Shown here: positions 126 to 23,047 of the stretch, piece after piece | Layout of the letters: each line of letters opens with the position of its first letter | Numbering within the stretch: the first letter of the stretch is position 1 | Virus record (IMG/VR): IMGVR_UViG_3300042995_000014 | Coordinates: 1 to 24,647 of that record | Length of the DNA stretch: 24,647 nucleotides | DNA from: a virus | Direction: 5' to 3' (one strand) | Position numbers and translations under genes: made by a program | Notes under the pieces: model-generated | Told to the model about the DNA's origin: nothing | The model's input: only the letters and a program-made list of their open reading frames with translations | Database searches by the model: none

Positions 126-251
126 CGCCGGATCGGCGCGCGTCGTGACCGGCGCCACGCCATCCGTCATCGGTGTCACGACGGTCTTCCTGCCTGGCCG
201 GTGCCTGATGGCCAGCGGCACCCGAACCGTCACGCTGGTCGCGGCGGTCAT
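99..251 (-). pseudogene. Recombinase-associated small protein, truncated by the IS
   Basis: A 50-codon frame starts at ATG 249-251 and overlaps the recombinase stop by four bases (ATGA). Its N-terminus (MTAATSVTVRVPL, then RPGRKTVVTP and TRADPAL) matches my memory of a roughly 100-150 aa protein often encoded directly after DUF2924-associated recombinases in alphaproteobacteria. In that family the 'RADPAL' segment is followed by an Ala/Arg-rich helical region. Here the reading passes into GARPGNG and stops, at the point where IS sequence begins. The role of the intact protein is unknown; a helper or regulator of the recombinase is only a guess from position. Confidence 0.55.
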
Positions 252-1600
252 GCTGCGGTCCTCAAGGCACTGGGCGAGATGGCGGTGAGATCGCGGACGA
301 GGCCGCCGAGCCCATCTAGCCGCAGCCGAATGTCCGCACCGGCCGGGCCGACCACCACCCGCTCCACCAGCGAGCGGACAATCCGAGCCTGCTCTGCCGG
401 GAAGAGGTGCTCCCACAGCGGGTCGAGCCGATGCAGGGCGTCCTGGGTTTCGGCCTCGGTGAGATCCGGCGCCTCCCTGCGCGTTGCCCGCCAAGTGCCG
501 ACCACGATCTCCGGCTGCCGCAGCAGCGCCCGCACCTGATCCACCACCGCCGCCTCGATCTCCGCGGCCGACACCCGGCGCACGATGCTGGCGTCGCCGG
601 CGGCGTCGCCCTTCAGGACCCGCTGCGCAACGTAGTAGCGGTAGAGCCGGCCATTCTTCCTGGAATGGGTTGGCGACAGCGCCCGTCCATCCACCCCAAA
701 GATCAGCCCTTTCAACAGCGCCGGCGTCTGTGCCCGGTTCTGGTTGGCGCGAACCCGCGGGCTGACCTGCAGCACGGCATGTGCCCGGTCCCATAGCTCC
801 CGCGGCACGATCCCCTGGTGCTCGCCGGGATAGACCTGCCCCTTGTGAGCGGCCTCGCCGACGTAGGTGCGGTTGTTCAGCAGCTTGTAGACGTCGCCCT
901 TGTCCAGCGGCCGACCCGCCTTGCTGGTGGCGCCCTCCTCCCGGAGGCGGGCCACTGTCTCGATGCCCGACCCAGTCTCGGCGAAGATCTCGAACACGCG
1001 GCGCACCCGCGGTGCCTCGTTCTCGTTCACCACCAACTTCCTTGCCGCGACGTCGTAGCCGAGCGGCACCTTGCCCCCCATCCACATGCCCCGCGCCCGG
1101 GAGGCGGCAAACTTGTCCCGAATGCGCTCGCCAATGACCTCGCGTTCAAACTGCGCGAAGCTGAGCAAGATGTTCAGCGTCAGCCGCCCCATGCTGGTCG
1201 TCGTGTTGAAGCTCTGCGTGACGGACACGAAGGTGACGCCATGCGCGTCCATCACCTCCACCAGCTTCGCGAAATCCATCAGCGAGCGGCTGAGCCTGTC
1301 GATCTTGTAGACCACGATCACATCGACCAGGTCGGCCTGAATATCGCGCAGCAGGCGTTGTAGGGCCGGCCGCTCCAGCGTGCCGCCGGAGAAGCCGCCA
1401 TCGTCGTAGCGGTCGCGGACCAGTACCCACCCCTCGGCGCGCTGGCTGGTGATATAGGCCTCGCAGGCGTCACGCTGGGCGTCGAGCGTGTTGAATTCCT
1501 TCTCTAGCCCTTCGTCCGTGGATTTCCGCGTATAGACGGCGCAGCGCAGCTTCTTCGTCGTGGCCGGCATGGCCGGCTCGATGCGGGCGCGGCGGCTCAT
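248..1600 (-). CDS. Large serine recombinase (site-specific integrase family)
   Basis: This 450-aa protein is a serine recombinase of the resolvase/integrase superfamily. The resolvase catalytic domain covers roughly residues 18-165, with nucleophile Ser27 in YTRKS, an IDRLSRS motif near residue 100 and a QFEREVIGERIRDK helix near 150. A 'recombinase' DNA-binding domain follows at about 175-290 (GYDVAARKLVVNENEA... DVYKLLNNRTYVGE). A zinc-ribbon-like region with the usual Cys ligands is not evident. The protein probably cuts and rejoins DNA at attachment sites to move the element. The start overlaps the DUF2924 stop (ATGA) and the stop overlaps the next start (ATGA), so the three genes look translationally coupled. 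Confidence 0.93.
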   Translation of the reverse strand: MSRRARIEPAMPATTKKLRCAVYTRKSTDEGLEKEFNTLDAQRDACEAYITSQRAEGWVLVRDRYDDGGFSGGTLERPALQRLLRDIQADLVDVIVVYKIDRLSRSLMDFAKLVEVMDAHGVTFVSVTQSFNTTTSMGRLTLNILLSFAQFEREVIGERIRDKFAASRARGMWMGGKVPLGYDVAARKLVVNENEAPRVRRVFEIFAETGSGIETVARLREEGATSKAGRPLDKGDVYKLLNNRTYVGEAAHKGQVYPGEHQGIVPRELWDRAHAVLQVSPRVRANQNRAQTPALLKGLIFGVDGRALSPTHSRKNGRLYRYYVAQRVLKGDAAGDASIVRRVSAAEIEAAVVDQVRALLRQPEIVVGTWRATRREAPDLTEAETQDALHRLDPLWEHLFPAEQARIVRSLVERVVVGPAGADIRLRLDGLGGLVRDLTAISPSALRTAA

Positions 1601-2127
1601 GCGTCACCTCGCGCGCGCAGCCCGAAAAACGTCCAGCCATTCCACCTTGTGCCGGTGATGTGCCGGGCGATGGCCGACAGTGACCGGTAGGGCCGGCCCT
1701 CGAACTCGAAGTCGTCGGCGCGGACAGTGACCACGTGCTGGACGCCGTCGTACTCCCGCAGCAGCCGTGTGCCGGGCAGTGGCCGGCTGTCGGCACGGAT
1801 GCGGCGCAGGACGATGTTGCCGCCGTCCAGCTGCTCGCCTAGCGCCTCCAGCCGCGCCCGCGTCTCCGGCCTCAGGCCGCCATAGGCCAGCTCCTGGATG
1901 CGGTAGGCCAGGCGGCTCTGGATGTAGGTCCGGCTGAAGGGCGGCGGCTCCTTGCCGTACAGCTCCCGCCACTGCTGTTTCAGCACGGCAATGGGCGCCG
2001 CCTGGAGGACCGCCAGGCGCCCCAGGACGTCGGCAGGGGGAATGGCGGGGAAGACCTGCACAGGCGCCTCCGGGGCGGCCTGTACGGCATCTCTGCTCTT
2101 CCTCGTCGCGGTGCTGGTGCGGATCAT
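1597..2127 (-). CDS. DUF2924 family protein
   Basis: A 176-aa protein of the DUF2924 family. Diagnostic stretches are LKQQWRELYGKEPPPFSR, SRLAYRIQELAYGGL, GTRLLREYDGVQH and a C-terminal RPYRSLSAIARHITGTRWNG. The chosen ATG (2125-2127) has a GGAG about eight bases upstream; an alternative upstream start at 2208 adds 27 low-complexity residues without an obvious ribosome site. The function is not established. The family is regularly found immediately upstream of serine recombinases in alphaproteobacterial mobile elements, which suggests a helper role in recombination or DNA recognition. The 3' end overlaps the recombinase start by four bases. Confidence 0.88.
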   Translation of the reverse strand: MIRTSTATRKSRDAVQAAPEAPVQVFPAIPPADVLGRLAVLQAAPIAVLKQQWRELYGKEPPPFSRTYIQSRLAYRIQELAYGGLRPETRARLEALGEQLDGGNIVLRRIRADSRPLPGTRLLREYDGVQHVVTVRADDFEFEGRPYRSLSAIARHITGTRWNGWTFFGLRARGDA

Positions 2128-2349
2128 GCGCGTCTCCGGTTGGTCCGGTTCGCACACACGCTCTGGTCGGCGGTGAAGTGTAGCGAACTCTCTTCGGCGC
2201 CGGCACAAGTCAAAGGGTCGGCCGCTGTGTGCTCCGCCGAGCGATCCCTAAGCCGCAGCAGCCCGACGGCCAGTATCGCGCAAACCTTGCGGAGGTGCGG
2301 CGGCAGGTGTGCGTTCAGCGGTAGCTTGGGGGCCAGTTCACGCATGAAT

Positions 2350-2491: not shown

Positions 2492-2496
2492 AGGAG
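2492..2496 (+). promoter_or_regulatory. Shine-Dalgarno AGGAG deciding a TTG start
   Basis: AGGAG lies seven bases before TTG 2504-2506. The frame upstream of this TTG runs to a TGA at 2432 without any ATG, GTG or TTG codon, so the ribosome site supports TTG as the real start. Confidence 0.6.
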
Positions 2497-2503
2497 CCCC
2501 GGT

Positions 2504-3673
2504 TTGCTCACCCTGCTTGAATTCCTCGGCTCAACGCCGGCTGGAGCTTTGCGCAGCTACTTCAGCGAGCTCAACATCGACCTGCCCCCAACCATTCCCT
2601 GGAGTGGTAAGACACGCACCCTCGGGTCAGCCTTGGCGGCTGCAGTGGAGGCCTTGCCGGAGCCCCAGCGCGCTGGTGTCGTGGCCGACGCACAACGCGT
2701 TGTCGAAATGGCGGACGAGCCAGGCGAGGCGGCACTCTACAGCTGCGTAGATGAAAACATCCGCGGTGTACTCGATCATTTGGCAAACAGGCATGAGCGG
2801 GCCCTCCACGTCTTTAAACACGTGACCCACCTCTTCCAGCGTGCTGAGCAGGTCCGGCATGCTGACATGTACCGCCGCGGGCGGAGCTGGAGCGGGTACG
2901 TCGGCGGGACCGGCGGCATCGTGTCTCGCGACCCAGAGCGGCTGAAGTCTTTCAAGCTCGCGGTTGCAGAATGCCTGCGCAGCCGTCTCGTCGAGGCCGA
3001 AGTCTATGACCGGACCCGAGTGGAGCAGCAAAACGACGTCGAGTTGGTGCAAGTGACGATCTACAGCCAGGGCCGGCCCGAAACCCGCCTCGCCTTCGTG
3101 CGCGGCATGCTTGACCGGGTACCAGATCATCGCGTGCTGGAGGCATCCCTCACCTACAGTCCCGGCGACGGCGTGATCGAAGTGGTGGCCAAGGACCGTG
3201 AGATGCGTGAGCCGCTGGTCCGGCTGCTGGCGGAGCATCTGCTGGGGATGCCGATCAGCGGAGAGAAGGTCACCTTGCGCCGGTACCGGCTCGATGGATT
3301 GTGCAGCCGCTTCGATTTTCCGACGGATCCCGAGGACAACATCGAGGACGTACGGCTGCTCCAGCTGCGCCTGATGCCGCTGGAGGGCAGCGGCGAGCGC
3401 ATCACCCTAGAGTGCCTTCGCGATGCTCCGCACAGCATCTGGAAGATGGCAGATGAACGCTTCGGCCAGCATAACCCTTTGGCCGGAGGATATACCGTGA
3501 CCCAGGCTCGGCTCAGTGTGCGCTTCTTTGCCCAACTTGGCGGGCGAGGCGCACGCACATTGACGGTCCAGATCACCATGCCCCAGGGCTGCGATCTGAA
3601 GGATCGGGATGGGCGGCAGCGCCTGGTCGGGGAGAAGTACCTCGCCCGCTGGGGCCTGGTGCAGTCGCTGTAG
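2504..3673 (+). CDS. Uncharacterised protein, first gene of a two-gene cassette
   Basis: A 389-aa soluble protein with no membrane segment or signal peptide, and no motif I can tie to an enzyme. The start is TTG with a good AGGAG. The N-terminal third (1-130) is helical and charged. A middle region contains TIYSQGRPETRLAF (185-198) and an alternating beta-rich stretch with VIEVVAKDREMREPL. The C-terminal third has FPTDPEDNIEDVRL (272-285), IWKMADERFG (312-321) and TMPQGCDLKDR (358-368). I recall similar 'hypothetical' proteins from alphaproteobacterial genomes but no assigned function. The stop codon abuts the ATG of the next gene, implying co-translation. A defence, regulatory or element-maintenance role is possible but unsupported. 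Confidence 0.75.
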   Translation: MLTLLEFLGSTPAGALRSYFSELNIDLPPTIPWSGKTRTLGSALAAAVEALPEPQRAGVVADAQRVVEMADEPGEAALYSCVDENIRGVLDHLANRHERALHVFKHVTHLFQRAEQVRHADMYRRGRSWSGYVGGTGGIVSRDPERLKSFKLAVAECLRSRLVEAEVYDRTRVEQQNDVELVQVTIYSQGRPETRLAFVRGMLDRVPDHRVLEASLTYSPGDGVIEVVAKDREMREPLVRLLAEHLLGMPISGEKVTLRRYRLDGLCSRFDFPTDPEDNIEDVRLLQLRLMPLEGSGERITLECLRDAPHSIWKMADERFGQHNPLAGGYTVTQARLSVRFFAQLGGRGARTLTVQITMPQGCDLKDRDGRQRLVGEKYLARWGLVQSL

Positions 3674-4600
3674 ATGGCGCTGCGAATGACTCCCGAGGCC
3701 GTGGATCTGCTGTTCCAGGTGATCGAGACGCCGGAGGCGAGACTGTCAGGGGCCGCCGCCGCCCTCTGCGAAGAGCGGGTCCAGCCGCTTCGGGAGAATG
3801 GCCTTCTCCGCGCGCACGGCCACGCCGATGTTGCCGTCCTGCCCCACGACGATGAGGATCGGCCCGTGCCGCTGTTCTCCTGGGGCGAGGCGGGCGAGAT
3901 GGCGGGCTTTGATCCCACCTGCGGGCCGGTGGTGGTGCCTGGTGAGCAGCTGGTGAACTGGGCTGCCGACCTGCCGCATCTCATCAAGCTGATGGTAGCC
4001 GAACTTGACCTGCTGACCGCCGCCGCGCCTCACACGCTGGTCCCACAGCTGCTTTGGGAAGTGGGCGATGCCCGCATCGGGCGGCGCCGAGAGCGCGTTT
4101 CGGTATGGTTCTGCCGCCGGCTGTGGGATCCAGAGGTGCTACGCGAAGTGAGGCAAATGGCAGTCGTACGGCCGCACCCGCGCCAGCGCCTGCTGCTGAC
4201 CAGTAGCAGGCCCGCCCGAGTGCGCGACGTCGTCATAGCGGCACACCTCGTGGTGCCGGTCCAGGAGGTGCTGAGGTTCGCCGACAGCCCGATGATATCG
4301 TCTGAGATTCTGGACGCGCGAATTGCTGGCGTGCCGCCGGTCGCGGCAAGCGAAGCAGTATGGCTGTCGCCGGACGGCAAAAAGCTGGTGATCAACGGCA
4401 CCGAAACCTTCACCTTCAGGTCGAAGCCGCACATCGCAGCGATCAACGCGCTGGTCGCAGCCCATCGGCAAGGGCGCCGCATTCGCACACTGGACCTGAC
4501 GGACCTTGGAAGCCTTCGTCGGATGTTCGGTGAAGCTCGGTGGTCGGGGCTTTCGCGCTATCTGATCAACCGCGACGGAGGCTGGTCGATCGAGACCTGA
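3674..4600 (+). CDS. Uncharacterised protein with winged-helix-like C-terminus, second gene of the cassette
   Basis: A 308-aa protein starting at the ATG directly after the previous gene's TAG (zero-base gap). No strong ribosome site is present, fitting translational coupling. The N-terminal half (about 1-200) has no recognisable motif; WDPEVLREVRQ near 151 looks helical. The C-terminal region from about 228 (VWLSPDGKKLVINGTETFTF) followed by a helix-rich segment (RSKPHIAAINALVAAHRQG, then LGSLRRMFG, then SRYLINRDGGWSI) has the strand-helix-helix-strand pattern of winged-helix DNA-binding domains. It may be a sensor/regulator or DNA-binding partner of the first protein. I do not recognise the family and do not name a function. 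Confidence 0.75.
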   Translation: MALRMTPEAVDLLFQVIETPEARLSGAAAALCEERVQPLRENGLLRAHGHADVAVLPHDDEDRPVPLFSWGEAGEMAGFDPTCGPVVVPGEQLVNWAADLPHLIKLMVAELDLLTAAAPHTLVPQLLWEVGDARIGRRRERVSVWFCRRLWDPEVLREVRQMAVVRPHPRQRLLLTSSRPARVRDVVIAAHLVVPVQEVLRFADSPMISSEILDARIAGVPPVAASEAVWLSPDGKKLVINGTETFTFRSKPHIAAINALVAAHRQGRRIRTLDLTDLGSLRRMFGEARWSGLSRYLINRDGGWSIET

Positions 4601-4702: not shown

Positions 4703-4942
4703 GTGGCCCTTACGCTTCTAAACCAGGCCGAACTGGCCCAGCGCTGGCGCATCAGCCCGCGGACGCTCGAGAGGTGGCGCTGGCTCGGTGAGGGCCCCGC
4801 CTACCTCAAGCTCGGCGGCTCGGTCGCCTACAGCCTGGATGACGTGCAGGCTTATGAGGCAGCGCAGCGGCGGGTGGCGAAGGCACAAGAGCAGCAACAG
4901 CTCACCGGACCCGAGCGCTTCGGTCTCGGTCTGCGGCGCTGA
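4703..4942 (+). CDS. AlpA/excisionase-like helix-turn-helix protein
   Basis: A 79-aa protein with an HTH_17/MerR-like fold: LLNQAELAQRWRISPRTLERWRW (about residues 5-27) is the helix-turn-helix, followed by a wing (GPAYLKLGGSVAYSLDDVQAYE). Proteins of this kind act as excisionases or as regulators of prophage and integrative-element genes. The start is GTG 4703-4705 with AGGAGA at 4691-4696. Its stop shares one base with the next start (TGATG), placing it first in a three-gene unit with the primase and helicase. It could control excision by the flanking serine recombinases or regulate replication. Confidence 0.8.
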   Translation: MALTLLNQAELAQRWRISPRTLERWRWLGEGPAYLKLGGSVAYSLDDVQAYEAAQRRVAKAQEQQQLTGPERFGLGLRR

Positions 4943-5955
4943 TGAACGGCGCCCTGCGGGATCCGGCGCCCGGCATTCGCATGGACAGGTCAGCGCTGCC
5001 CAGCCCTGCCGCAGCGGCCGATCTACTCGCCGGTCGCATCCGCGAACTGACGGATGTCCTGATCGGCCAAGCTCCCACCACGCAATCCGGCACCGAGCTG
5101 CGCTTTCGCTCGCGCGGCAGCCTCCAGGTCTGGATCTCCGGCAATAGGCGCGGGAAGTGGAAGGATCACGAGGAAGGCGCGTTCGGCGACGCTCTCGCCC
5201 TCGTGGCGCATCTGCGTCGGTCCAGCATGCGCGAGGCTTACGGTTGGTCCCTGGACTGGCTCGCGATCAGACGTTGCTCGCGGACTGACGCGCTCCCGCA
5301 GCAGCTGTCGCGGCAAGAGAGGGATCGACTGTCCACGCCGCGGCCGAACACCTCCAACGCCGACTTCGCGCTCCGGGTCTGGCGCGAAGGTGTCACGGCG
5401 CTGGGCACGCCGGTGGAAGCTTATCTGACCCATCGCGGCCTGATCCTGCCCGACATCGCGCCGATCCGGTTCCACGCGGCGTGTCCGCGCGGCAGGGACG
5501 AGCGTCTCCCGGCCATGTTGGCGCTGATGACCGACCCGCTCAGCGGCGAGCCGTGCGGCGTCCATCGCACCTTCCTGGCCTCGGACGGCCGGGGCAAGGC
5601 CGGTGGTCAGGCCAAGATGATGCTTGGCCGCGCAGGGGTCATCCGCTTGGTGCCCGACGAGGAGGTGACCTTGGGCCTCGGCATTGCCGAGGGAATCGAG
5701 ACGAGCTTGGCGATCATGCAAGAGTTCGAGTGGAGCCCGGTCTGGGCCGCTACCAGCGCCGGCGGGATCACCGTCTTCCCGGTGCTGTGTGGCGTCCAGG
5801 CGATCACGGTGTTCGCGGACGCGGATGACGGTGGGATCGGCATAAAGGCGGGCAAGGCCTGCATGACGCGGTGGGCTGATGCTGGTCGTGGTGCTCGGAT
5901 CATCGCCGCGCCGCCCAGCCACGACTTCGCCGACCTCGTCGCGAGCGCCGGGTGA
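4942..5955 (+). CDS. TOPRIM-domain primase-like protein (phage/plasmid type)
   Basis: A 337-aa protein. The N-terminal part has the pattern GSLQVWISGNRRGKWKDHEEG.FGDAL (59-84) typical of primase-like proteins of mobile elements in this bacterial group. The C-terminal part is a TOPRIM domain: IAEGIETSLAI (248-258) supplies the catalytic Glu250, and FADADDGGIGIKAG (291-304) supplies the Asp pair. It lacks an N-terminal CHC2 zinc finger, as is usual in this subgroup. It probably primes replication of the element together with the downstream helicase, with which it shares a TGATG junction. The start at 4942 overlaps the upstream stop by one base. Confidence 0.83.
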   Translation: MNGALRDPAPGIRMDRSALPSPAAAADLLAGRIRELTDVLIGQAPTTQSGTELRFRSRGSLQVWISGNRRGKWKDHEEGAFGDALALVAHLRRSSMREAYGWSLDWLAIRRCSRTDALPQQLSRQERDRLSTPRPNTSNADFALRVWREGVTALGTPVEAYLTHRGLILPDIAPIRFHAACPRGRDERLPAMLALMTDPLSGEPCGVHRTFLASDGRGKAGGQAKMMLGRAGVIRLVPDEEVTLGLGIAEGIETSLAIMQEFEWSPVWAATSAGGITVFPVLCGVQAITVFADADDGGIGIKAGKACMTRWADAGRGARIIAAPPSHDFADLVASAG

Positions 5956-7070
5956 TGGCGGCGCCCTCGCCTGAGGAGCGGCTGCGGGCCAGCGGCGCCA
6001 GGACGCAGAGCGGCCCCCTGTGCCCGCTCATCCTGATTGATCCCCGGGAGTGGAAAGGGCCTGCGCCGGCGCGACGTTGGGTGATTCAGGACTGGCTGCC
6101 GTCCGACACGGTGTCGGCGCTCTACGGCGACGGCGGGATCGGCAAGAGCCTGCTCGCGCAACAGCTCCTCACGGCGATGGCGCTGCGGAAGCCGTGGTGC
6201 GGCATCGACGTGTCCGGCGGGCGGGCGCTCGGCATCTTCTGCGAGGATCCCGAAGCCGAACTGCAACGCCGCCAGGAAGCCATCAACCGGCATCTTGGAG
6301 CCGGAATGAGCAACCTCTCGGATTTGCGCCTGCTGTCGCGGCTCGGCGAAGACAACGCGATGGTCTCGTTCGACCGAGAGCAGCGAGCTTTGACCGATTT
6401 TGCCGAGCAGGTCTCGTCGGCGTGCCACGACTTCAAGCCGGCGCTCCTGGTGCTTGATACCGCTGCAGACCTGTATCCCGACAACGAGAACGATCGGAGC
6501 AAGGTGCGCTGGTTCATCGCGTCGCTTGCGAGGATTGCCTCGCAGCACGGCTGTGCCGTCTTGCTGCTGGCTCACCCTTCGCAGTCAGGTTTGGCTTCCG
6601 GCCAGGGCACCGGTGGCAGTACCGCCTGGAACAACACGGTTCGCTCCCGTCTCTACCTCGACCGGCCGGACGAAAAAGATGGGGACGTGCGTCTCCTGCG
6701 GCGCATGAAGGCCAACTACGCCGCACAGGGCGGTGAGGTGCGGCTGCGCTGGAGCGGGGGCGTGCTGGTTTCCGAAGCGCAGCAACAAGGCAAAGACGAC
6801 GTCTCCTGGAACATCATCCGGGCTCTGTTCCAGACGATCGATAAGGCTTGGAAGGAGGGCAAACCATTGTCGACGACGCCGCAGACACGACGCAGTGGTC
6901 GCTATTTCCCGGCCATAGCACACAAGCTGCACCAGGTGCCGGAGAAGAAGGCGGCGAAGCTGATTGAAGACTGGATCGTCGAGGGGTATCTGACGGTCGA
7001 AGAGGCCAACGCAAAGCGCCATCTTTCCGGCCTTCGAGTGCTTCGGTGGCTTAGCCCTGCCGGCGCGTGA
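5955..7070 (+). CDS. RepA-like AAA ATPase / hexameric helicase
   Basis: A 371-aa RecA-fold ATPase of the RepA/AAA_25 group (related to the RSF1010 RepA helicase). Walker A is GDGGIGKS (58-65), Walker B is LLVLDTAADL (164-173), and an LLAHPSQSG segment follows near 205. The C-terminus from about 280 looks like a winged-helix module (KKAAKLIEDWIVEGYLTVEEA). The predicted role is to unwind DNA at the element's origin. The ATG at 5955 gives the same TGATG junction as the previous pair; a GTG one codon earlier (5952) is possible. The iteron-like array begins 39 bases after its stop, which strengthens the replication assignment. Confidence 0.85.
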   Translation: MAAPSPEERLRASGARTQSGPLCPLILIDPREWKGPAPARRWVIQDWLPSDTVSALYGDGGIGKSLLAQQLLTAMALRKPWCGIDVSGGRALGIFCEDPEAELQRRQEAINRHLGAGMSNLSDLRLLSRLGEDNAMVSFDREQRALTDFAEQVSSACHDFKPALLVLDTAADLYPDNENDRSKVRWFIASLARIASQHGCAVLLLAHPSQSGLASGQGTGGSTAWNNTVRSRLYLDRPDEKDGDVRLLRRMKANYAAQGGEVRLRWSGGVLVSEAQQQGKDDVSWNIIRALFQTIDKAWKEGKPLSTTPQTRRSGRYFPAIAHKLHQVPEKKAAKLIEDWIVEGYLTVEEANAKRHLSGLRVLRWLSPAGA

Positions 7071-7108: not shown

Positions 7109-7239
7109 GGCGAAGGTTACATCACAAGCCATTGCATTCATTGGCGAAAGTTCGGCGAAGATGTTCGGCGAAGGTGGCGAAGGTTCGGGTTTAAGTCCCT
7201 GTTTTCCATGGCGAAGGTTCGGCGAAGGTCGGCGAAGGT
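7109..7239 (+). repeat. Iteron-like direct repeats, consensus GGCGAAGGT
   Basis: Eight direct copies of GGCGAAGGT or one-base variants start at 7109, 7143 (GGCGAAAGT), 7154 (GGCGAAGAT), 7167, 7176, 7210, 7221 and 7231. Spacing inside the two tight groups is 9 to 13 bases, close to one helical turn, so copies face nearly the same side of the DNA. Several copies are preceded by TTC. All copies are on the same strand. This resembles iterons bound by replication initiators, but no classical Rep initiator other than the helicase and primase is present. Confidence 0.65.
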
Positions 7240-7565
7240 GTATCCCCCATACCCCCTACGCACTGTCGCGCGCCTCAGGAGGCGCCGCGAGTGCGTCAGG
7301 AGCCGTGTAGAGAAGGCGCTCTCGTTGATCAGAAAGCACCTCGTCTGTGCGGGATGGAATGGCGCGTCACTCGCGCCCCGGCTCGAGCTACTGGCCCCGC
7401 GTGCTGAACTGCCAACCTTGGCGCCGTACGCGGCGACCCGATCTTGGGTGGGCGGATGACGCGACCTGCGTATGCGCGAGCAGCCGTGCGAAAGAATGTC
7501 GTGTGGCGGCACGGAATCCCGATGCGGTACCCTTGGCCCGGCGGCGCGCATCGTCAGCGCGATCT

Positions 7566-12715: not shown

Positions 12716-13482
12716 CAGGCTGCCACCGCCGCGATCTGGTAGACGCTGTAGCTGCCGCGCGCGCCAATCTTGTTCGGCCCGACTTGGCGCACCCGCTCCA
12801 GCACCGTCACCTCGATGCCGTGCCGGATCCGAAGGCCGGCGAAGAAGCCGCGGACGGTGTGCGGTGCCCAGCCTGTGGCGTCGGCCACCTGGGCCACTGT
12901 TGCACCCTCCGGCCGGCGCAGCAGGGCCAGCACCGCCGCCTGCTTGGTGCCCTCGCGCGGCCTGCGGGGGATGTCGGCTGCTCGTGGCGCGCGGGCCGAT
13001 TGGCCGGCGAGGATCGCGCGCATGGAGGTCAAAGGAGCGTCGAGAGACTGCGAGGCTTCCCAGGCCGCGACCACGGCCGCGGCCGCCAAGCGCAGGGTGG
13101 CACGCCCGTCAGTCGCGCCCGTCAGCGGGCAGGCCCTTTCAGGACTCACAGGCGGGCCGTCAGAGCCGCCTGGCGTGCCGGGGTGTTCTTGCTGCCCCTC
13201 GGGCGCCGAAGCCTCCAGTGCGCCTCCCGTGCCCTCCTGCGCGGCCGCCAAGCCGGCGTCGGTGATCCGCAGTGTCATCCATGCGCCAGCCTCATCCTGG
13301 CGCCAGCCGAGGCCGACATGCTCTGGCGGCGCCGGCACCTCACCCAACAAGCGATTCTTGAGCATGCTGCGGAACACCGCGTTGCGCGCTCCGGCCGGCA
13401 GGCGCTCAGGCGCCTTGGCCAGTTGCGCTTCATGCTGTGCGGCCGCGGTCAGGATCTGCATTTGCGTGGTCGAGATGGTCAT
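12715..13482 (-). CDS. DUF3489 family protein
   Basis: A 255-aa protein whose C-terminal 75 residues are a DUF3489 domain: PREGTKQAAVLALLRRPEGATVAQVADATGW.PHTVRGFFAGL (175-217), a winged-helix-like fold, then RGSYSVYQI. The N-terminal part (7-80) is a second conserved block; residues about 85-170 are a variable Ala/Pro-rich linker. The ATG at 13480-13482 has AGGA seven bases upstream; a GTG at 13503 would add seven residues. Function is unknown. DUF3489 proteins are usually met beside DUF2924 and a recombinase, so DNA binding for recombination is plausible. Confidence 0.85.
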   Translation of the reverse strand: MTISTTQMQILTAAAQHEAQLAKAPERLPAGARNAVFRSMLKNRLLGEVPAPPEHVGLGWRQDEAGAWMTLRITDAGLAAAQEGTGGALEASAPEGQQEHPGTPGGSDGPPVSPERACPLTGATDGRATLRLAAAAVVAAWEASQSLDAPLTSMRAILAGQSARAPRAADIPRRPREGTKQAAVLALLRRPEGATVAQVADATGWAPHTVRGFFAGLRIRHGIEVTVLERVRQVGPNKIGARGSYSVYQIAAVAA

Positions 13483-13826
13483 CGTCCGGTCCTGGTCAGG
13501 CACCCGATGATCCGAATGCTACCAGCCTGAGCCCCGCAGGCGACGCCAGCCGGGGCAGAGAAGCGGGTCGCGCAGCACTGGACCATTCGCTCTGGATCGC
13601 CAGAAAAGCCAAGCAGATAGTCGGCTCGCCTGTCTGCTACGCAGTACTCTCTCGCGCTGCCATGACCCTCGCTAAAATGCCGATCGGGCCGACGAAGATC
13701 CACGGCAGCCGGCGATTTCCTTTGGAGGCCATCGCCAGCCGCGGCGCCTCAGAGCATTCTGGCAGACGCAATCCGGCGAGGGGGCGACGATGCGTCCTTG
13801 ATGCCGGCGTAGGGAGAGGGGCAGTC
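13483..13826. other. 344-bp spacer at the mobile region / backbone boundary
   Basis: No gene is supported here. It separates the minus-strand DUF3489 gene from plus-strand alanine dehydrogenase and must hold both promoters. TAAAAT at 13673-13678 could be a -10 box for ald, but the -35 position is poor. No repeat, tRNA fragment or clear attachment site was seen. Confidence 0.3.
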
Positions 13827-14942
13827 ATGCGGATCGGTGTGCCAAAGGAAATCAAGATCCACGAGTATCGCGTCGGGCTGACGCCGGGCTCGGTGCGGGA
13901 GCTTACAGCCCAGGGCCATCAGGTTCTCGTGGAGACGGGTGCGGGGGCGTCGATCGGCTTCGACGACGCGAGCTACCGGGCTGTCGGGGCGTCAATCGCT
14001 GCCAAGGCTGCGGATGTCTTCGCCGCGGCGGAGCTGGTCGTGAAGGTAAAGGAGCCCCAACCCGAGGAATGGATCCAGCTGCGCCCGGACCAAGTGCTGT
14101 TTACCTATCTGCACCTCGCGGCCGACCGCGACCAGGCAATCGGGCTGCTACAGTCGAACGCCAGCGCCGTGGCCTATGAGACCGTGACCGATGGCCAAGG
14201 GGGCCTGCCACTGCTGGCGCCGATGAGCGAGGTCGCCGGTCGCATGGCAGTGCAGGTCGGCGCGCGTTGCCTGGAGAAGGAGGCCGGCGGGGCTGGCATC
14301 CTGCTTGGTGGGGTGCCGGGCGTGCCCGGGGCTAATGTTGTTGTGCTCGGCGGCGGCGTGGTGGGGTCCAACGCCGCTCGGATCGCCCAGGGCATGCGCG
14401 CCCGCGTCACGGTGCTCGATCGCTCGCTGCGCGTGATGGCGGCGCTGGACGCCGAGTTCGGCGGCACCGTGGCAACACAATTTGCCAGCGTGGAAGCGAT
14501 CGAGGCGGCGGTATTGGCAGCAGACTTGGTGATCGGCGCCGTGCTGCTACCTGGCGCGGCGGCGCCCCGGCTGGTGACCAGGGAGATGGTGCGGAAAATG
14601 CGACCGGGCAGTGTGGTGGTAGATGTGGCGATCGATCAAGGCGGTTGCTTCGAGACGTCCCGCCCTACTACCCATGCAGAGCCCACATACCTCGTCGACG
14701 GTGTGGTGCACTACTGCGTGACAAACATGCCGGGCGCCGTGGCGCGCACCAGCGCTGTCGCTCTGAACAATGCGACCTTGCCCTTCACACTGCAGCTGGC
14801 TGGAAAGGGGCTGCGGCGGGCCTGTGCAGAGAACCCTCATCTGGCACAGGGCCTCAACGTGCACGCCGGCCGGATTACCCATCCCGCGGTCGCTGCTGCT
14901 TTGGGCATGACTTTCACGGCGCATGAGACACTGATGGGTTGA
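13827..14942 (+). CDS. ald: Alanine dehydrogenase
   Basis: A 371-aa NAD-dependent L-alanine dehydrogenase, which interconverts L-alanine with pyruvate and ammonium. The N-terminus [18 protein letters not shown] is diagnostic. Substrate and catalytic residues known in the family fall at their usual numbers: Arg15, Lys75, His96 and Asp270. The NAD-binding Rossmann loop is [14 protein letters not shown] (171-184). Length matches the family. The ATG at 13827 has GGGAGAGGGG just upstream; the longer open frame before it is not protein-like. It is the first backbone gene right of the mobile region, and converges on the amidase gene. No AldR regulator lies beside it. Confidence 0.95.
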
Positions 14943-15065
14943 TGTTTGATGGAGGTGAGACCCACGCTAACTCGCGGTCCATAAATGGACACAGGCGGTC
15001 TCCGCGCCAGCCCGCGCCCGTTTCCATGCGCTACGGAGCGTCAGGAGGAGGGTGAGGACAACGCG

Positions 15066-16454
15066 CTACAGCGCCGGCCGCCGCCGTTCGTCGGCGGTCA
15101 CGCGCTCGAAGGCATGGCCGGCGCGAAGGGCCAGCGCATCCTCGAAGGGACGCCCGATGATCTGCGCACCCACGGGCAGCCCGCCCGCCCCATAGCCCGT
15201 GCAGACAGAGACGACCGGCTGACCCGTTACGTTGAAGGGCGCGGTGAGGTTCGCGCCCTGCAGTGTCGTCCAGGTGCTTAGACTCTCGAGCAGGGCCGCC
15301 TCGACCGGCTGCCCAGCGGTGACCAGCAGGTCGCACTCCTGCATCACGGAGGCGACAGCCTCGCAAAGTTCGCGCCGCCGGCGCTGCGCCTGCACGTAGT
15401 CCGCCCCGGTGATGAGCGCCGCAATGGACAGCCGCTCGCGCAGAATGCGGCCATAGTCCTGGAAGCGGGTCCGCAGCCACGGCTGGTGGATCGCCAGCGC
15501 CTCGGCCATCAGCACCACCCAGCCAGCAGCATGGAAGTCGCACAGTGGCGGCAGCGTGACCTCGCGGATCTCGGCGCCCTCGGCGCGCAGCACCTCCAGC
15601 AGTCGCTCAATCCCGGCGCACACCGCCGGGCTCGCCGGCAGGTCCGACTCATGGAAGTGCCTCACCACGCCGATCCGCAGGCCGGCCACGCCACCCGCGA
15701 GGCCAGAGAGCAGGTCGGGCACCGGCCGGTCGGCTGAGGAGGGGTCCTCCGAATCATGGCCTGCCATGGCCTGCAGCAGGATCGCGCAATCCTCCACTGT
15801 CCAGGCCATCGGCCCGGCGGTGTCCATGCTGTGCGAGAGCGGTAGGATGCCGCGCCGACTGCAGAGCCCGTAGGTCGGCTTCACTCCGGCGATCCCGCAC
15901 CAGGCCGAAGGCAACCGGATGGAGCCGCCGGTATCGGAGCCCGTACCGCCCAGGATGATCCCCGCCGCCACCGCTGCGCCCGTACCCGAGGAGGAACCGC
16001 CCGTAGCGCGTGTCGTATCCCAGGGGTTGCGCGGCGGCGGCCAGGGCAGGTCGAAGGAGGGGCCGCCGCTGGCGAACTCATGCGTCGCGAGCTTGCCGAG
16101 CATCACCGCGCCGCACGAAGCCCAGGCTGCAACGGTCGCCGCGTCTCGAGCCGGCAAATGGTCCAGCAGGATGCGGGAATGCGCAGTGGTTGGGATGCCG
16201 GCCGTCTCGTAGATGTCCTTATGGGCGACGGGGATGCCATCCAGCGCGCTGAGCAGCGTTCCGGCCATCTGACGCGCCTCGGCCTCCCGCGCCTGGCGTA
16301 AAGCCACGTCTTCGGTCAGACGTATGAAGGCGTTGAGGCGCGGATTCAGTGCCTCGGCGCGTGCCAGCGCAATCCTTGTCAGCTCGACGGGGGAGAGCGC
16401 CCTCGTGGCGATCAACCGCGCGGCCTCGGCGAGGCTGCCGGGAAGCGTGGTCAT
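15066..16454 (-). CDS. Amidase signature enzyme, AtzE-like
   Basis: A 462-aa amidase signature hydrolase. The Ser-cisSer-Lys triad is visible: Lys79 in VAHKDIY, the cis-Ser region in GGSSSGTGAA (152-161), and nucleophile Ser178 in GSDTGGSIRLP (172-182). Length fits the family (GatA, AtzE and relatives). The start overlaps the stop of the small AtzG-like gene by four bases (ATGA). That pairing suggests an AtzE-type enzyme, which hydrolyses 1-carboxybiuret in the s-triazine/cyanuric acid route, or a related amidase that uses the same small partner; no other gene of that route is nearby, so the substrate is open. Confidence 0.9.
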   Translation of the reverse strand: MTTLPGSLAEAARLIATRALSPVELTRIALARAEALNPRLNAFIRLTEDVALRQAREAEARQMAGTLLSALDGIPVAHKDIYETAGIPTTAHSRILLDHLPARDAATVAAWASCGAVMLGKLATHEFASGGPSFDLPWPPPRNPWDTTRATGGSSSGTGAAVAAGIILGGTGSDTGGSIRLPSAWCGIAGVKPTYGLCSRRGILPLSHSMDTAGPMAWTVEDCAILLQAMAGHDSEDPSSADRPVPDLLSGLAGGVAGLRIGVVRHFHESDLPASPAVCAGIERLLEVLRAEGAEIREVTLPPLCDFHAAGWVVLMAEALAIHQPWLRTRFQDYGRILRERLSIAALITGADYVQAQRRRRELCEAVASVMQECDLLVTAGQPVEAALLESLSTWTTLQGANLTAPFNVTGQPVVSVCTGYGAGGLPVGAQIIGRPFEDALALRAGHAFERVTADERRRPAL

Positions 16455-16645
16455 GGGACGGCGTCGCGCGGTGAGAAGACGGGTGCGGGCTCCACCTCGA
16501 TGGGCAGCGGCGCGTGGAGACGTTCGATCATCGCAAGCAGCAGGCCGGAGGCGGCATGGACGCTGGTCCGACCCTCCGGGTCGAGCAAGATCCCGGCACG
16601 CGCCATCAGCGCGTCGAAGACAGGCTCGGGGATAAGATCTGGCAT
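16451..16645 (-). CDS. AtzG-like small amidase partner (DUF4089 type)
   Basis: A 64-aa protein ending in LHAPLPIEVEPAPVFSPRDAVP. The pattern 'hydrophobic helix - LDPEGR - helix - LP..VEPAPVF.P' matches the AtzG/DUF4089 small proteins, which have a GatC-like fold and bind an amidase signature enzyme. The start is ATG 16643-16645, because GGAGG stands six bases upstream; an ATG at 16651 directly touches that site. It overlaps the amidase start by four bases, which fits a stoichiometric complex. The spacing to upstream spoVR is about 100 bases, so shared transcription is possible. Confidence 0.7.
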   Translation of the reverse strand: MPDLIPEPVFDALMARAGILLDPEGRTSVHAASGLLLAMIERLHAPLPIEVEPAPVFSPRDAVP

Positions 16646-16651
16646 AGTCAT

Positions 16652-16656
16652 CCTCC
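16652..16656 (-). promoter_or_regulatory. Shine-Dalgarno GGAGG deciding the AtzG-like start
   Basis: On the minus strand GGAGG is followed by ATGACT and then ATG 16645. The first ATG has no spacer to the site, while the second has six bases, so the second is taken as the start. Confidence 0.6.
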
Positions 16657-16747
16657 GCTCAGTCAAGTCGCGCGAGCCAGCCTGGCGGTCCGGCCATCGA
16701 GCGCGGGGCGCGTCCACCACCCAGTGCGCGCTACCGCCTACTTAAAC

Positions 16748-18304
16748 CTATCCGAGCGCATGGATAATGCCCGGCCTTGCGGCAGCGCTCTGCTCCCGAA
16801 GCACGACGCCTGTGCCATCTACCTCGCGCAGCAGCACAGCGTAGCTCCAGAGGTCCGCCAGGTGTTGCAATACGTGATGTGTCTGGTCCGGGTCTAGCAA
16901 CTGGCCGTCGAGCACCTGGTGGTGAAGGATGAGCCGCCTGTCTCCCATCAGGTCTACATCATTGATCTGGATGTCAGGGCCGGTGCGCCCAACATCATGC
17001 AGGCGCGCCAGCGCCTGCCGAAGGCGCCGGAAGCCGCGCGCATCGTGGATAGCATCGACGCGCAACTCCCGTTCACCCTGGGCGTCCACCAGCTTGAACA
17101 TCCTGAACCGGCGCATCAGGCGCGGGCTCAGAAACTGGGCGATGAAGCTGTCGTCGCGATGGTTCGCCCAGGCGTCGCGCAGCACGCCAAGGGCATCCCG
17201 GCAGCCTGCGAAATCGGGGAACCACTCCCGGTCTTCGGCATCCGGCTCGGTGGCGATGCGGGCGATGTCCTCCATCATCGCATAGCCAAGCGCATAGGGG
17301 TTGAGGCCTGAATAGCGCCGGTCGTCGAAGTCGGGCTGTGTCACGACATTGGTGTGGCTGTGCAGGAACTCCAGGAACTGACCATCGGAAAGCCGGCCCT
17401 GCTGGTGCAGGCGCGACAGGATGCGGTGGTGCACAAAGGTGGCACAACCCTCGTTCATCACCTTGGTCTGTCGCTGAGGATAGAAATACTGCTCGATGTT
17501 GCGGACGATGCGCAGGATCTCGCGCTGCCAGGGCTTCAGGCGTGGTGCCGTCTTCTCCAGGAAATAGAGGATGTTCTCCTGCGGCAGCTCGAGCAGCGCG
17601 CGACGCCGTGCCTCGTCGAGTTGCGCGGCGGGTGCGGTTCCGCTGGCCGGCAGGGTGCGCCAGAGATCGTCGTAGATGCGTTCCTCATGCGCGCGACGCT
17701 CGCGTTCCCGCTTCTCCTCCCCGGCCAGGTCCAGCGCGCGGCGTCGCGGCACGCGGAAGATGGCCTGCGAGGACAGCGCATGCGCTGCATCCAGCACGCG
17801 TTCGACCTCCATCTCGCCGTGCTGCTCCTCGCAGCGGGCGATGTAGCCGCGGGCAAAGTCGATGTAGTCGAGGATGCCCGCGGCATCCGTCCATTCCCGG
17901 AACAGGCCGTTGTTGCGGAAGAAGTGGTTGTGGCCGAAGGCGGCATGCGCAATCACCAGCGCCTGCATCGTCGCCGTGTTCTCCTCCATGACGTAGCAGA
18001 GGCAGGGCGAGGAGTTGATGACGATCTCATAGGCCAGCCCCTGGAAGCCGGCACGGTAGAGCGCCTCGTGCCGGGCAAACCTCTTGCCGAAGCTCCAATG
18101 CCGATAGAACAGCGGCATGCCGTTGGCAGCGTAGGCGTCGAGCATCTGTTCGGCCGAGATGACCTCGATGCGCGTGGGGTAGAGCGTGAGCCCCAGTTCC
18201 CCGGTCGCGATCTCGCCGCAGGCGTCGTGGATGCGCTGGAGCGTGTCGAAATCCCAGTCCGCCCCGCGGAACAGAAGCCGGCCAGCCTCGGCCGTGGCAC
18301 TCAT
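16748..18304 (-). CDS. SpoVR family protein (YcgB-like)
   Basis: A 518-aa SpoVR/YcgB family protein, close to the usual 500-510. Diagnostic stretches are GLTLYPTRIEVISAEQMLDAYAANGMPLFYRHWSFGK region near 40-75, INSSPCLCYVMEENT, AHAAFGHNHFFRNN (His-rich), and VMNEGCATFVHHRI. The His/Glu clusters suggest a metal site, but the biochemical activity is not established. In Bacillus the homologue affects spore cortex; in Gram-negatives it belongs to the PrkA-YeaH-SpoVR stress/stationary-phase triad, as here. The start overlaps the yeaH stop (ATGA), so translation is coupled. Confidence 0.93.
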   Translation of the reverse strand: MSATAEAGRLLFRGADWDFDTLQRIHDACGEIATGELGLTLYPTRIEVISAEQMLDAYAANGMPLFYRHWSFGKRFARHEALYRAGFQGLAYEIVINSSPCLCYVMEENTATMQALVIAHAAFGHNHFFRNNGLFREWTDAAGILDYIDFARGYIARCEEQHGEMEVERVLDAAHALSSQAIFRVPRRRALDLAGEEKRERERRAHEERIYDDLWRTLPASGTAPAAQLDEARRRALLELPQENILYFLEKTAPRLKPWQREILRIVRNIEQYFYPQRQTKVMNEGCATFVHHRILSRLHQQGRLSDGQFLEFLHSHTNVVTQPDFDDRRYSGLNPYALGYAMMEDIARIATEPDAEDREWFPDFAGCRDALGVLRDAWANHRDDSFIAQFLSPRLMRRFRMFKLVDAQGERELRVDAIHDARGFRRLRQALARLHDVGRTGPDIQINDVDLMGDRRLILHHQVLDGQLLDPDQTHHVLQHLADLWSYAVLLREVDGTGVVLREQSAAARPGIIHALG

Positions 18305-19599
18305 GGGCCCGCTCCCTCCATGGCTCCCTTGCGGAACAACTCGCGGAAGACCGGATAGATCTCGCGCCGATGGCTGGCCTTCCGCATGGCCAGGCGACGA
18401 TTGGCGGCACCCAGGCGGACATAGGTGTTCCAGAGCTCCGTCTCCCGCGAGACGAAGCCGAAATTGCCGGCCTGATGCTCGTGGCCGATCTCGAGATAGG
18501 CGTAGTACTGGCAGACCGGCAGGATCTGCTTCGACAGGAGATCCGTGGTGCGCTCCCGGTCTCCGCTGGCATTGTCGCCGTCCGAGGCTTGGGCCACGTA
18601 GATGTTCCAGTCCGCCCGATCGTAGCGCGCCTGCATCACCTTCAGCATCACCTCGAAGGCGGTGGAGACGACGGTGCCGCCGGTCTCTGGACTGCGGAAG
18701 AAGGTCTCCTCATCCACCTCGCTGGCCTCATGCGTGTGGCGGATAAAGACGACCTCCACGTGACGGTAGCAGCGAGAAAGGAACAGGTGGAGCAGCAGGT
18801 AGAAGCGCTTCGCCAAGTCCTTCATGGCCTCGGTCATGGAGCCCGAGACATCCATCAGGCAGAACATCACGGCTTGTGCCACCGGTCGCGGCGCCGGTTC
18901 GAACTGGCGGTAGCGCACATCGATCGGATCGACATAGGGAATGCGCGTTCCACGGGCGCGCAGCAGCGCAAGCTTCTCGCGCAGTACCTCGGCTTGCGCT
19001 GATTCCCCGGCCTCCGCCTCGGCCTGGCGCAATTCCTCCTCGAGCCGCTCGATCTCCTCAGGCTTCGGGCGACGCAGCGCGATGCGGCGCGACATTGCGT
19101 TGCGCATGGTGCGCCCAAGCGCGAGATTGGCCGGTGAACCCTGTGTTCCGAAGCCGGCTCTCCGCAGTTCGAAGGCATCGCCTTCGACCAGTCGCTTCCT
19201 TGCAAGTTCCGGCAGTTCCAGATCCTCGAGGAAAAGGTCCAGGAACTCCTCCTGCGTCAGCGCGAAGCGGAAGCTGTCTTCGTCCTTCCCGTCCAGGCTG
19301 CCCTCCCGGCCGCCGCCCTCGCCGGAGCGAGGGCGCGGGATGCGGTCGCCCTCCAGGAACTCCCGGTTGCCCGGCAGTACATGCTCGCGAAGCCCGCCGG
19401 CGGCGCGATGGAACTGCGGCTCGTTCACGCCGCCGGCGGGAATGGTCACTTCGCCGCCGCGGGCCAGGTCGCGCACGCTGCGCTCGCCGGCCGCCTCGCG
19501 CACCGCCTCCCGGACCAGCTCCCTGGCGCGACGGATGAAGCGTTGCCGGTTGGAGAGGCTCTTCCCGCTCGGGTTCAGGCGACGGTCGACGATCTGCAT
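18301..19599 (-). CDS. yeaH: YeaH/YhbH family (DUF444) VWA-domain protein
   Basis: A 432-aa DUF444 protein (E. coli YeaH is 427). The opening MQIVDRRLNPSGKSLSNRQRF is typical and fixes the start at ATG 19597-19599; a longer frame to 19647 overlaps prkA and is not conserved-looking. A Gly-rich segment lies at 88-105 and a charged coiled-coil at 178-215. A von Willebrand A fold from about 240 has the MIDAS motif DVSGS (250-254). It is thought to work with the PrkA kinase under nutrient stress. Seventeen bases separate it from prkA, and it overlaps spoVR. Confidence 0.94.
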   Translation of the reverse strand: MQIVDRRLNPSGKSLSNRQRFIRRARELVREAVREAAGERSVRDLARGGEVTIPAGGVNEPQFHRAAGGLREHVLPGNREFLEGDRIPRPRSGEGGGREGSLDGKDEDSFRFALTQEEFLDLFLEDLELPELARKRLVEGDAFELRRAGFGTQGSPANLALGRTMRNAMSRRIALRRPKPEEIERLEEELRQAEAEAGESAQAEVLREKLALLRARGTRIPYVDPIDVRYRQFEPAPRPVAQAVMFCLMDVSGSMTEAMKDLAKRFYLLLHLFLSRCYRHVEVVFIRHTHEASEVDEETFFRSPETGGTVVSTAFEVMLKVMQARYDRADWNIYVAQASDGDNASGDRERTTDLLSKQILPVCQYYAYLEIGHEHQAGNFGFVSRETELWNTYVRLGAANRRLAMRKASHRREIYPVFRELFRKGAMEGAGP

Positions 19600-19616
19600 C
19601 CGCGGCGCCTTGTGCC

Positions 19617-21563: not shown

Positions 21564-21568
21564 CAGCT

Positions 21569-21573
21569 CCTCC
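21569..21573 (-). promoter_or_regulatory. Shine-Dalgarno GGAGG deciding the prkA start
   Basis: On the minus strand GGAGG is followed by AGCTG and ATG 21563. A GTG at 21575 overlaps the site and is therefore unlikely to be the start. Confidence 0.65.
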
Positions 21574-21718
21574 ACTCAAACAACGTCAGGCCCGCATCCA
21601 AGCCAGCGAGACTGCCCACGCGGGGCACACGGGGCTGTCCAGTCTCGGCCAGAGCAAGGCCAGTAATGCCGCGCCGCATCAAACCACAGATGGATTACAG
21701 GTTCAGGCGTGCAACCGG

Positions 21719-21817
21719 GCTGCTCGCAATTCATCATAACGCCGATGAAGCGAAAAGGTGGCACGATCAGTCGTTATTGCGGAACCGTGATCTGCATTTA
21801 GAGCTGCCCGCAATTCA
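21719..21817 (+). repeat. Pair of 15-bp direct repeats upstream of prkA
   Basis: GCTGCTCGCAATTCA at 21719-21733 recurs as GCTGCCCGCAATTCA at 21803-21817, one mismatch, 84 bases apart. Read on the minus strand in one frame both encode ELRAA. They could be regulator sites of the prkA promoter region or a trace of a repeated protein sequence. Confidence 0.45.
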
Positions 21818-22279
21818 GCCCTACAGGCGGCGCCACCGTTAAGGCCTCGGCGGAAGTCTGAGCATGCGCCTATGGCCTCGAGCGCCGCCGGCGGCGCTAC
21901 CGTGCCTAGGGGAAAGGACAACTGGTCGAGGAGACCGCACGGCCGGTGTGACGGTTTTCGCGGTCCGCCGGCTACAAGGCGTTTCCCCCAGCCTGCTGTC
22001 CATTAACGGCGGCGCATGCCCAAGGGCAGGCACAAAGCGATTAGCGCGGACGAGGAAATCGTCTCCGTCAGCCGCGTCGGGGAATTTGAGGCCCGATCCA
22101 CAACCTCGAACGCCTACTCAGCCGCAAGGCCAGGTGGATGACGCCGCCTATGGCTACCGGGCCCGCCTCTGCCCCTTCTGATTGTCGCTGTACTAGCAGC
22201 AACGCGTCGGCGCTCACGATTAGATGCTGGGCGATAAAGAAATGTCGGAACAAGGCATGTGGCGCGCCCCACTGCTCGC

Positions 22280-23047
22280 TCAGCCACTCTCGTTTCCGGA
22301 TACCACCTCGGATCTTCCTCGCGTGGGTCTGTGCCCGGCGGCCCAGTTGGCGATCGCTGCCGCGATCTTTTCGCCACCTCTCACCGAGGGCCCTGTGGGG
22401 CCGGCGAAATCCCTGTCCTCGCTGCAGATCAGACGCAAGTCGATTAGCGCAGTACCCTGCGCGAAGGCGCCGCGGGTGATCACATCGTTGAACGTGGCGA
22501 GGGCCACAATCGCTACCCTCCGGCGTTCAGGCCCGGGGAAACGCGGGTCGTAGACCGTGCAGACTGCGGCTGGCAGCCCACGCCCGAGCAGCACGTCAAG
22601 CATCGTTCGGTAATCCTGTTCGAAGCTTTCGCGAAGGGTTGCAATCCGAGAGAGACCATGAGCCACGCTCCGCGCCGGTTCAGCAAGCACGCCCTCGCGC
22701 CGGCCGGCATCGTTGCCGCCCGCGCTGACCACCAAGTGGGTCGCATCGGGCGGCAGCCTCGCGAGCTGACCTGGCACGTCGGCCGCTACAGAGCCGCCTC
22801 CGGCTAGGAGAGTGGCCTGCCAGCCTGATGGCAATCGCCTGCGGAGCTGCGCCACCACGTCGGGCCCACTACCCCGGAGGTAGCCTGCATTGTCGAAGAC
22901 GGAATCGCCGAGAAGAACTACATGACCTACAGGTCGTGCCCCCAAAGACTGCGTGCTAGCAGTTCGCGAGCAAGTCATGAGTCCTGCAGCAGCAGTGACG
23001 CTGAGCGCTGTCCGGCGGGGCACAAGCAAGCCTAACGAAGCGGTCAT
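22280..23047 (-). CDS. Exported SGNH/GDSL hydrolase-like protein
   Basis: A 255-aa protein with a signal sequence: Arg11-Arg12, a hydrophobic stretch, then LMTC with Cys26, which fits a lipoprotein signal, possibly Tat-type because of the Arg pair. The SGNH fold is indicated by block I LLGDSVFD (nucleophile Ser49), the block II glycine in AGGGS (83-87) and block III SAGGND (108-113). Block V should carry D-x-x-H, but after Asp203 the segment DLRLICSE..DFAGP.GPS has no His. It may use another residue or be a binding protein. The ATG has AAGGA nine bases upstream. It stands alone. Confidence 0.8.
   Translation of the reverse strand: MTASLGLLVPRRTALSVTAAAGLMTCSRTASTQSLGARPVGHVVLLGDSVFDNAGYLRGSGPDVVAQLRRRLPSGWQATLLAGGGSVAADVPGQLARLPPDATHLVVSAGGNDAGRREGVLAEPARSVAHGLSRIATLRESFEQDYRTMLDVLLGRGLPAAVCTVYDPRFPGPERRRVAIVALATFNDVITRGAFAQGTALIDLRLICSEDRDFAGPTGPSVRGGEKIAAAIANWAAGHRPTRGRSEVVSGNESG

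Follow-up and report, generated by a model that had tools for sequence, protein, structure and literature searches.

W1 and W2, the two adjoining genes at positions 2504-4600 of the window (by which we mean the whole 24,647-nucleotide stretch of viral DNA, an IMG/VR record, analysed here), are an obligate two-gene unit of mobile elements. Besides its obligate pairing, the family to which they belong is marked by coupling of the two genes, gene fusions, purifying selection, adjacency to a repressor and/or protease gene, and operator-like dyads. We judge it an evenly balanced proposition that W1-W2 is a DNA-binding pair of RexA-like type, coupled to the repressor, which acts on prophage DNA as lysogeny gives way to induction and may in addition exclude other phages. 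RexA has long been an isolated oddity, associated with phage exclusion, DNA binding and a tilt of the lambda switch, its real job unsettled; a large repressor-linked family with a RexA-like predicted fold and a soluble DNA-binding partner would provide a comparative system in which to approach that job. It would also put a name to the function of a pair that ~8% of the sampled Pseudomonadota genomes carry and that Pfam, NCBIfam and PADLOC leave unannotated.

The gene pair in the window

The pair and its surroundings comprise the following features:

248-1600, minus strand: large serine recombinase (PF00239/PF07508)
1597-2208, minus strand: DUF2924 protein (PF11149, E 4.2e-48)
2127-2330, minus strand: small conserved protein of ~66 aa, first of the recombinase operon (tblastn, 66-aa ORF of locus L148, 57%, E 1.8e-19)
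2209-2503, no strand: region upstream of W1, without dyad, XRE gene or ImmA gene, unlike most relatives
2492-2496, plus strand: AGGAG, the likely W1 ribosome-binding site, 7 nt 5' of the TTG
2504-3673, plus strand: W1, an ORF of 389 aa with a TTG start and a TAG stop at 3671-3673
3674-4600, plus strand: W2, an ORF of 308 aa with its ATG directly after the W1 stop
4703-4942, plus strand: AlpA-like HTH_17 (excisionase-type) gene (PF12728, E 1e-8)
4942-7070, plus strand: Toprim primase-like and AAA_25 helicase-like replication genes (Pfam and PHROG matches)
W1 protein: predicted N-terminal helical domain (residues 1-122) and alpha/beta domain (129-389)
W2 protein: probable N-terminal winged helix, central alpha/beta region and C-terminal OmpR/PhoB-type winged helix (residues ~229-306), as predicted

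W1 and W2 are intact, translationally coupled genes, and the TTG start of W1 is consistent with its homologues. The first-pass annotation, made from the sequence alone, had described a zero-base junction, divergence from a recombinase operon, a soluble 389-aa first protein and a winged-helix C-terminus in the second, and each of these descriptions holds: TAG runs directly into ATG at 3674, the serine recombinase/DUF2924 operon lies on the minus strand, and the maximal Kyte-Doolittle hydropathy over 19 residues is 0.84 for W1 and 1.35 for W2, which marks both as soluble and reveals no transmembrane segment in W2 (the winged helix is taken up with the structural models below). Among close homologue pairs, the median dN/dS is ~0.10 for W1 and ~0.20 for W2, and the two genes are separated by an overlapping junction or by ≤15 bp in 183 of the 185 measurable family loci; because of this purifying selection and these tight junctions, we regard W1 and W2 as real genes.

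The small protein of ~66 aa, for which we know of no family name, is encoded in many elements at the head of the operon of DUF2924 and serine recombinase genes, and an AlpA-like gene follows the pair in 104 relative loci. The nearest relatives of the window stand at ~50% identity, with recombinase, DUF2924, small ORF, XRE, ImmA, W1, W2 and AlpA as the usual order. Neither an XRE/ImmA remnant (by tblastn) nor a dyad upstream of W1 was found in the window, where the XRE and ImmA genes were either lost from a decaying prophage or replaced by a different regulation. The element looks decayed, since genes for capsid or tail could not be recognised in the window, and attachment-site repeats were likewise not recognised at the prophage ends. 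From a reading of the translations, we take the prophage to be the left part only, stopping after the terminase genes, and positions 13437-24647 to be host-like chromosome with alanine dehydrogenase-like, amidase, SpoVR-like, YeaH-like and PrkA-like kinase genes; on the same reading, almost half of the contig would be host DNA adjoining a truncated prophage. No RNA families were found within the window. The intergenic stretch after the AAA_25 gene (7140-7240) holds dense direct repeats around TGGCGAAGGTTCGG, which resemble iterons and may possibly mark a replication origin of the element.

An obligate pair in mobile elements

That the genes were unrecognised, as had been noted at the outset, stands as far as Pfam, NCBIfam and PADLOC are concerned (the 2023 edition of PADLOC was used for the defence-profile search), with no family for either protein, and needs amending for PHROG, in which W1 belongs to phrog_37634 (E 4.5e-71), a family without known function. 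Searches of PDB sequences gave nothing meaningful for W1 or W2 (the W1 profile drew weak helical matches only), neither the PDB nor the viral library yielded a match to W2 as a whole protein, W1 and W2 showed no homology when compared with each other, and neither protein displayed, by Pfam or hydropathy, a membrane segment, a nuclease domain or another effector that could be recognised. Tblastn brought up a Candidatus Tenderia plasmid and Acidithiobacillus phage AcaML1.

Scans of the genome and viral collections with one protein at a time came back empty, and alignments were required for detection. The alignment-based scans gave 62 viral loci in one case, 156 genome loci (80 retained) in a second and 200 viral loci (80 retained) in a third; the pooled set of 194 W1 loci comprises scan loci together with the window, the plasmid and AcaML1. 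W2 is present in 193 of these 194 loci, which are not independent counts, as related loci are included and certain prophages occur in both collections; in the sole exception (L070), the contig stops 39 bp past the W1 match. The suggestion that the window carries an undescribed two-gene system of mobile DNA is thus upheld, there being no Pfam, NCBIfam or PADLOC family and near-universal co-occurrence, and the survey of homologue pairing proposed with it came out almost without exception.

W1-W2 fusions were scored in 8 W1 entries and are carried by at least two lineages, with AcaML1 gp6 a single 751-aa protein in which W1 is fused to W2. The two genes also lie side by side on the Ca. Tenderia plasmid. 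Of 398 Pseudomonadota genomes drawn independently, 31 (~8%) have W1 and 29 a W2 match; on inspection of these loci W2 adjoins W1 almost everywhere that sequence exists, and there are independent fusions of ~720 aa. The gene pair is common to prophages of many alphaproteobacteria. Confinement to one type of element was considered and rejected, given that the pair occurs with serine recombinases, in elements with tyrosine integrases, in AcaML1 and on a plasmid.

Predicted structures

AlphaFold models, with inputs of 67 and 97 sequences taken from the window and the retrieved loci, reached a pLDDT of 90.1 (pTM 0.71) for W1 and 91.4 for W2. When the W1 model was compared with the PDB by Foldseek, 11 of the top 12 matches belonged to the group of RdgC, CENP-N/Chl4, CENP-L and RexA. 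RdgC led (2owy, E 1.2e-4, prob 0.99), accompanied by human and yeast CENP-N (E from 5.8e-4, for 7xho, to 8.5e-3, prob up to 1.00), Chl4 (6qld, prob 1.00), CENP-L (E 1.4e-2, prob 0.85) and, weakly, lambda RexA (8twq, E 0.021, prob 0.28); the global TM-scores of the RdgC, CENP and RexA matches are low, at 0.20-0.28 (0.21-0.28 for CENP-N/L). RexA, RdgC, Iml3 and Chl4 have been treated as one fold in the paper that describes the RexA structure (PMC11077077).

Profile-profile comparison by hhalign, with ten control families included, linked W1 neither to RdgC (prob 0.5% with 24 aligned RdgC sequences) nor to RexA, in a test that is underpowered, as RdgC against RexA was also negative. Because these tests were negative, we claim similarity to RdgC and RexA at the level of the fold only, and the relation of the modelled W1 to RdgC, RexA and CENP-N is of that kind. 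For W2, only the C-terminal winged helix finds neighbours, which are OmpR/PhoB-like and weak; together with the AlphaFold model and a remote W2 relative in L277 that scores above the Pfam cut-off for Trans_reg_C, they bear out the winged-helix C-terminus.

A repressor, a protease and operator-like sites beside W1

An XRE gene and/or an ImmA/IrrE-type protease gene (Peptidase_M78) adjoins W1 in 135 of the 150 loci with enough upstream sequence: both genes are present and divergent in 68, both are present and co-directional in 51, and only one was recognised in 16. In most co-directional loci, the distance from protease to W1 is constant at ~103-123 bp. The 15 loci without XRE or M78 include the window, the plasmid and seven AcaML1-type loci, in which an AlpA-like gene and a PIN gene take the place of XRE/M78; in AcaML1 itself (L002:4238-7557), an annotated excisionase gene and a PIN_3-domain gene lie directly 5' of the fused W1-W2, replacing XRE-ImmA.

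Many W1 promoters also contain dyads in pairs. The dyad TACGC-N6-GCGTA (≤1 mismatch) has, in the 160 bp 5' of W1, a density 109-fold that in the rest of the loci, and in the group that carries it 59 of 82 sites lie 5' of W1 and 9 lie 5' of XRE. A second group of loci has GTTCG-N6/8-CGAAC pairs before W1, mostly ~50 bp and sometimes ~65 bp apart. In many relatives, W1-W2 thus looks like a transcription unit with its own repressor-controlled promoter, in which these dyads are candidate operators.

The association extends to remote members of the family. Twelve DUF2924 elements missed by the close W1 profile were re-examined, and four held a remote W1; three of the four lie directly after a LexA/S24-type repressor, and the protein encoded downstream is weakly similar to W2 at best; a near-copy of one of these loci (L310) has the same gene order. 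Because the remote branch follows LexA/S24, the type of repressor varies while the position of W1 beside a repressor is kept. Two of the LexA-linked loci carry a DUF3800-like protein between W1 and a putative remote W2 (L271:9890-11032 and L273:3085-4215).

Other neighbours differ from locus to locus. In deep-branch loci, multiubiquitin/JAB/E1 genes adjoin the pair, and from the translations the nearby cargo presumably also includes type I and ISP restriction-modification, AbiE and a CBASS-like CD-NTase with patatin. The Ca. Tenderia plasmid has W1-W2 followed by an operon of multiubiquitin, JAB-like and ThiF/E1-like genes (L003:8983-13664), and SbcC/SbcD-like ATPase and nuclease genes (gene clusters 28 and 37) stand beside XRE-ImmA-W1-W2 in L134:2059-6710 and relatives. 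The first-pass annotation had read the pair as cargo, and it was right that this is a unit of mobile elements; its behaviour is not that of arbitrary cargo, with a repressor or protease beside W1 in ~90% of loci, and a simple cargo slot is weakened by the same statistics. Since the pair adjoins a prophage repressor in most relatives, it probably belongs to a lysogeny or phage-exclusion switch rather than to random cargo, and because the repressor/protease is a constant neighbour in ~90% of loci, with an operator-like promoter in many of them, while the cargo varies, the pair is better placed in the immunity/induction region.

A proposed RexA-like module of the immunity region and its alternatives

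We argue the mechanism from the family, as the window copy is without repressor, protease and dyads. In the RexA-like reading, W1 would supply the DNA-clamp fold common to RexA, RdgC and CENP-N, and W2 would contribute winged-helix DNA recognition as a soluble stand-in for the membrane protein RexB, the two forming a two-subunit complex. In intact elements, W1-W2 would have its own promoter, at which the XRE repressor encoded alongside would occupy paired operators; once the ImmA/IrrE-type protease next door clears that repressor, the pair would be expressed, as it would upon LexA-type self-cleavage of the repressor in the remote branch. The expressed pair would then attach to the DNA of the element and bias or stabilise the passage from lysogeny to induction, and it may, as a second effect, exclude other phages. 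Complex formation, DNA binding, the repressor that occupies the dyads, the timing and the outcome are what we infer here. Published work on RexA offers a precedent: its homologues bind DNA and adjoin CI/Cro-type repressor genes, and RexA alone, without RexB, tips the lambda switch towards the lytic state (PMC11077077). Against the RexA-like reading stand the window copy, with no repressor, protease or dyad, the copy on the mobilizable plasmid, with no adjoining repressor, the low TM-scores, a RexA match that is weak by itself, the negative profile-profile comparison of W1, and the joint transcription of lambda rexAB with its repressor.

A bolder form of the RexA-like reading, which we hold to be possible and somewhat doubtful, makes W1-W2 the founding member of a prophage "clamp plus winged-helix" switch, in which a prokaryotic, heteromeric CENP-N/RexA-like DNA clamp is released by the repressor/protease on DNA damage. 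If so, RexA-type proteins would represent a widespread, repressor-coupled control of lysogeny with interchangeable partners, and the kinetochore CENP-N/L fold would have functional counterparts in mobile elements.

The strongest rival to the RexA-like switch, although unlikely in our estimate, is a dedicated anti-phage system in which W1 would sense invading phage DNA or a replication intermediate, W2 would mediate growth arrest or transcriptional shut-off, and the repressor/protease would keep the pair silent until infection or damage. Defence stays a live rival because RexA, the nearest named functional relative, is a phage-exclusion protein; prophage-encoded RexA and P. putida RexApp are phage-defence proteins (PMC11077077, PMC12894663). 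The presumed restriction-modification, Abi/AbiE and CD-NTase/patatin genes and the multiubiquitin/JAB/E1 genes of the deep-branch loci, and the PIN-domain gene directly upstream in AcaML1-type loci, point the same way. Such defence neighbours vary by locus, however, whereas the repressor association is constant, and W1 and W2 have neither a PADLOC match nor a membrane, nuclease or other recognisable effector.

A role in DNA maintenance or recombination, whereby an RdgC/CENP-N-like clamp and a sequence-specific wHTH protein would aid replication, segregation or recombination of the excised element or plasmid, strikes us as improbable. It would suit the fold similarity of W1 to RdgC and CENP-N/L, the mobilizable plasmid, the absence of RdgC from the four host genomes tested, and the orientation of the pair, which in all scored cases is that of the AlpA, AAA_24 and cluster-5 genes lying downstream. 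Yet the close W1 family is often missing from DUF2924-recombinase elements (W1 lies within 10 kb at 26 of 137 DUF2924 places, an underestimate because remote W1s exist), and the repressor-type candidate operators suggest a switch. Very improbable, finally, is unrelated cargo whose link to XRE-ImmA reflects a shared insertion hotspot or an adjoining COG2856-Xre toxin-antitoxin unit: pairs of XRE and ImmA/IrrE-type protease have been put forward and investigated as a toxin-antitoxin type (PMC10538038, PMC2701414), and the window W1-W2 does without XRE-ImmA, but the association spans very divergent W1 branches, also with a different repressor type, and operator-like dyads lie in the W1 promoter.

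Comparison with known systems

The RexA-like reading can be set against systems that W1-W2 resembles in part:

(i) COG2856-Xre toxin-antitoxin units consist of genes that adjoin the family and are absent in the window; W1 and W2 themselves are neither XRE nor M78/ImmA proteins.

(ii) ImmR/ImmA of ICEBs1 and DdrO/IrrE share with most W1 loci an XRE repressor and an M78 protease, and have dyad operators at a regulated promoter (operator-like in the case of W1). Genes of these types adjoin W1-W2 and do not make up the pair; the window has none of them beside W1.

(iii) CENP-N/Chl4 resembles W1 in being the longer protein that works with a partner, with Foldseek matches over several entries. CENP-N/Chl4 and CENP-L/Iml3 belong to the eukaryotic inner kinetochore, W2 shows no sign of a CENP-L-like fold, and the likeness to W1 is a tentative one of predicted fold, given the low TM-scores.

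(iv) RdgC (PF04381) is the best Foldseek match of W1, which differs in having no PF04381 match, in being always paired with W2 and in being borne on mobile elements. As defined by sequence, W1-W2 is neither RdgC nor RexAB.

(v) RexAB is the closest parallel in the reading that we favour, with differences in sequence, partner and transcription. PF15969 (RexA) matches neither W1 nor any family member, while lambda RexA itself scores E 1e-97; the 398 genomes gave no PF15969 match in a search whose control also went undetected, which is not evidence of absence. W1 is ~110 aa longer than RexA and has an N-terminal helical domain; its partner is a soluble winged-helix protein, whereas RexB is a four-helix membrane protein; and in lambda PRM drives rexAB together with the repressor, whereas W1-W2 is usually served by a promoter of its own that bears operator-like sites. 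The likeness of the W1 model to the RdgC-like fold of RexA is tentative, with the E-values and low TM-scores given above. What W1 and RexA have in common is that both are soluble proteins encoded in a compact operon with a second gene and standing beside a prophage repressor, a position that W1 holds in the same 135 of 150 family loci, the window not among them.
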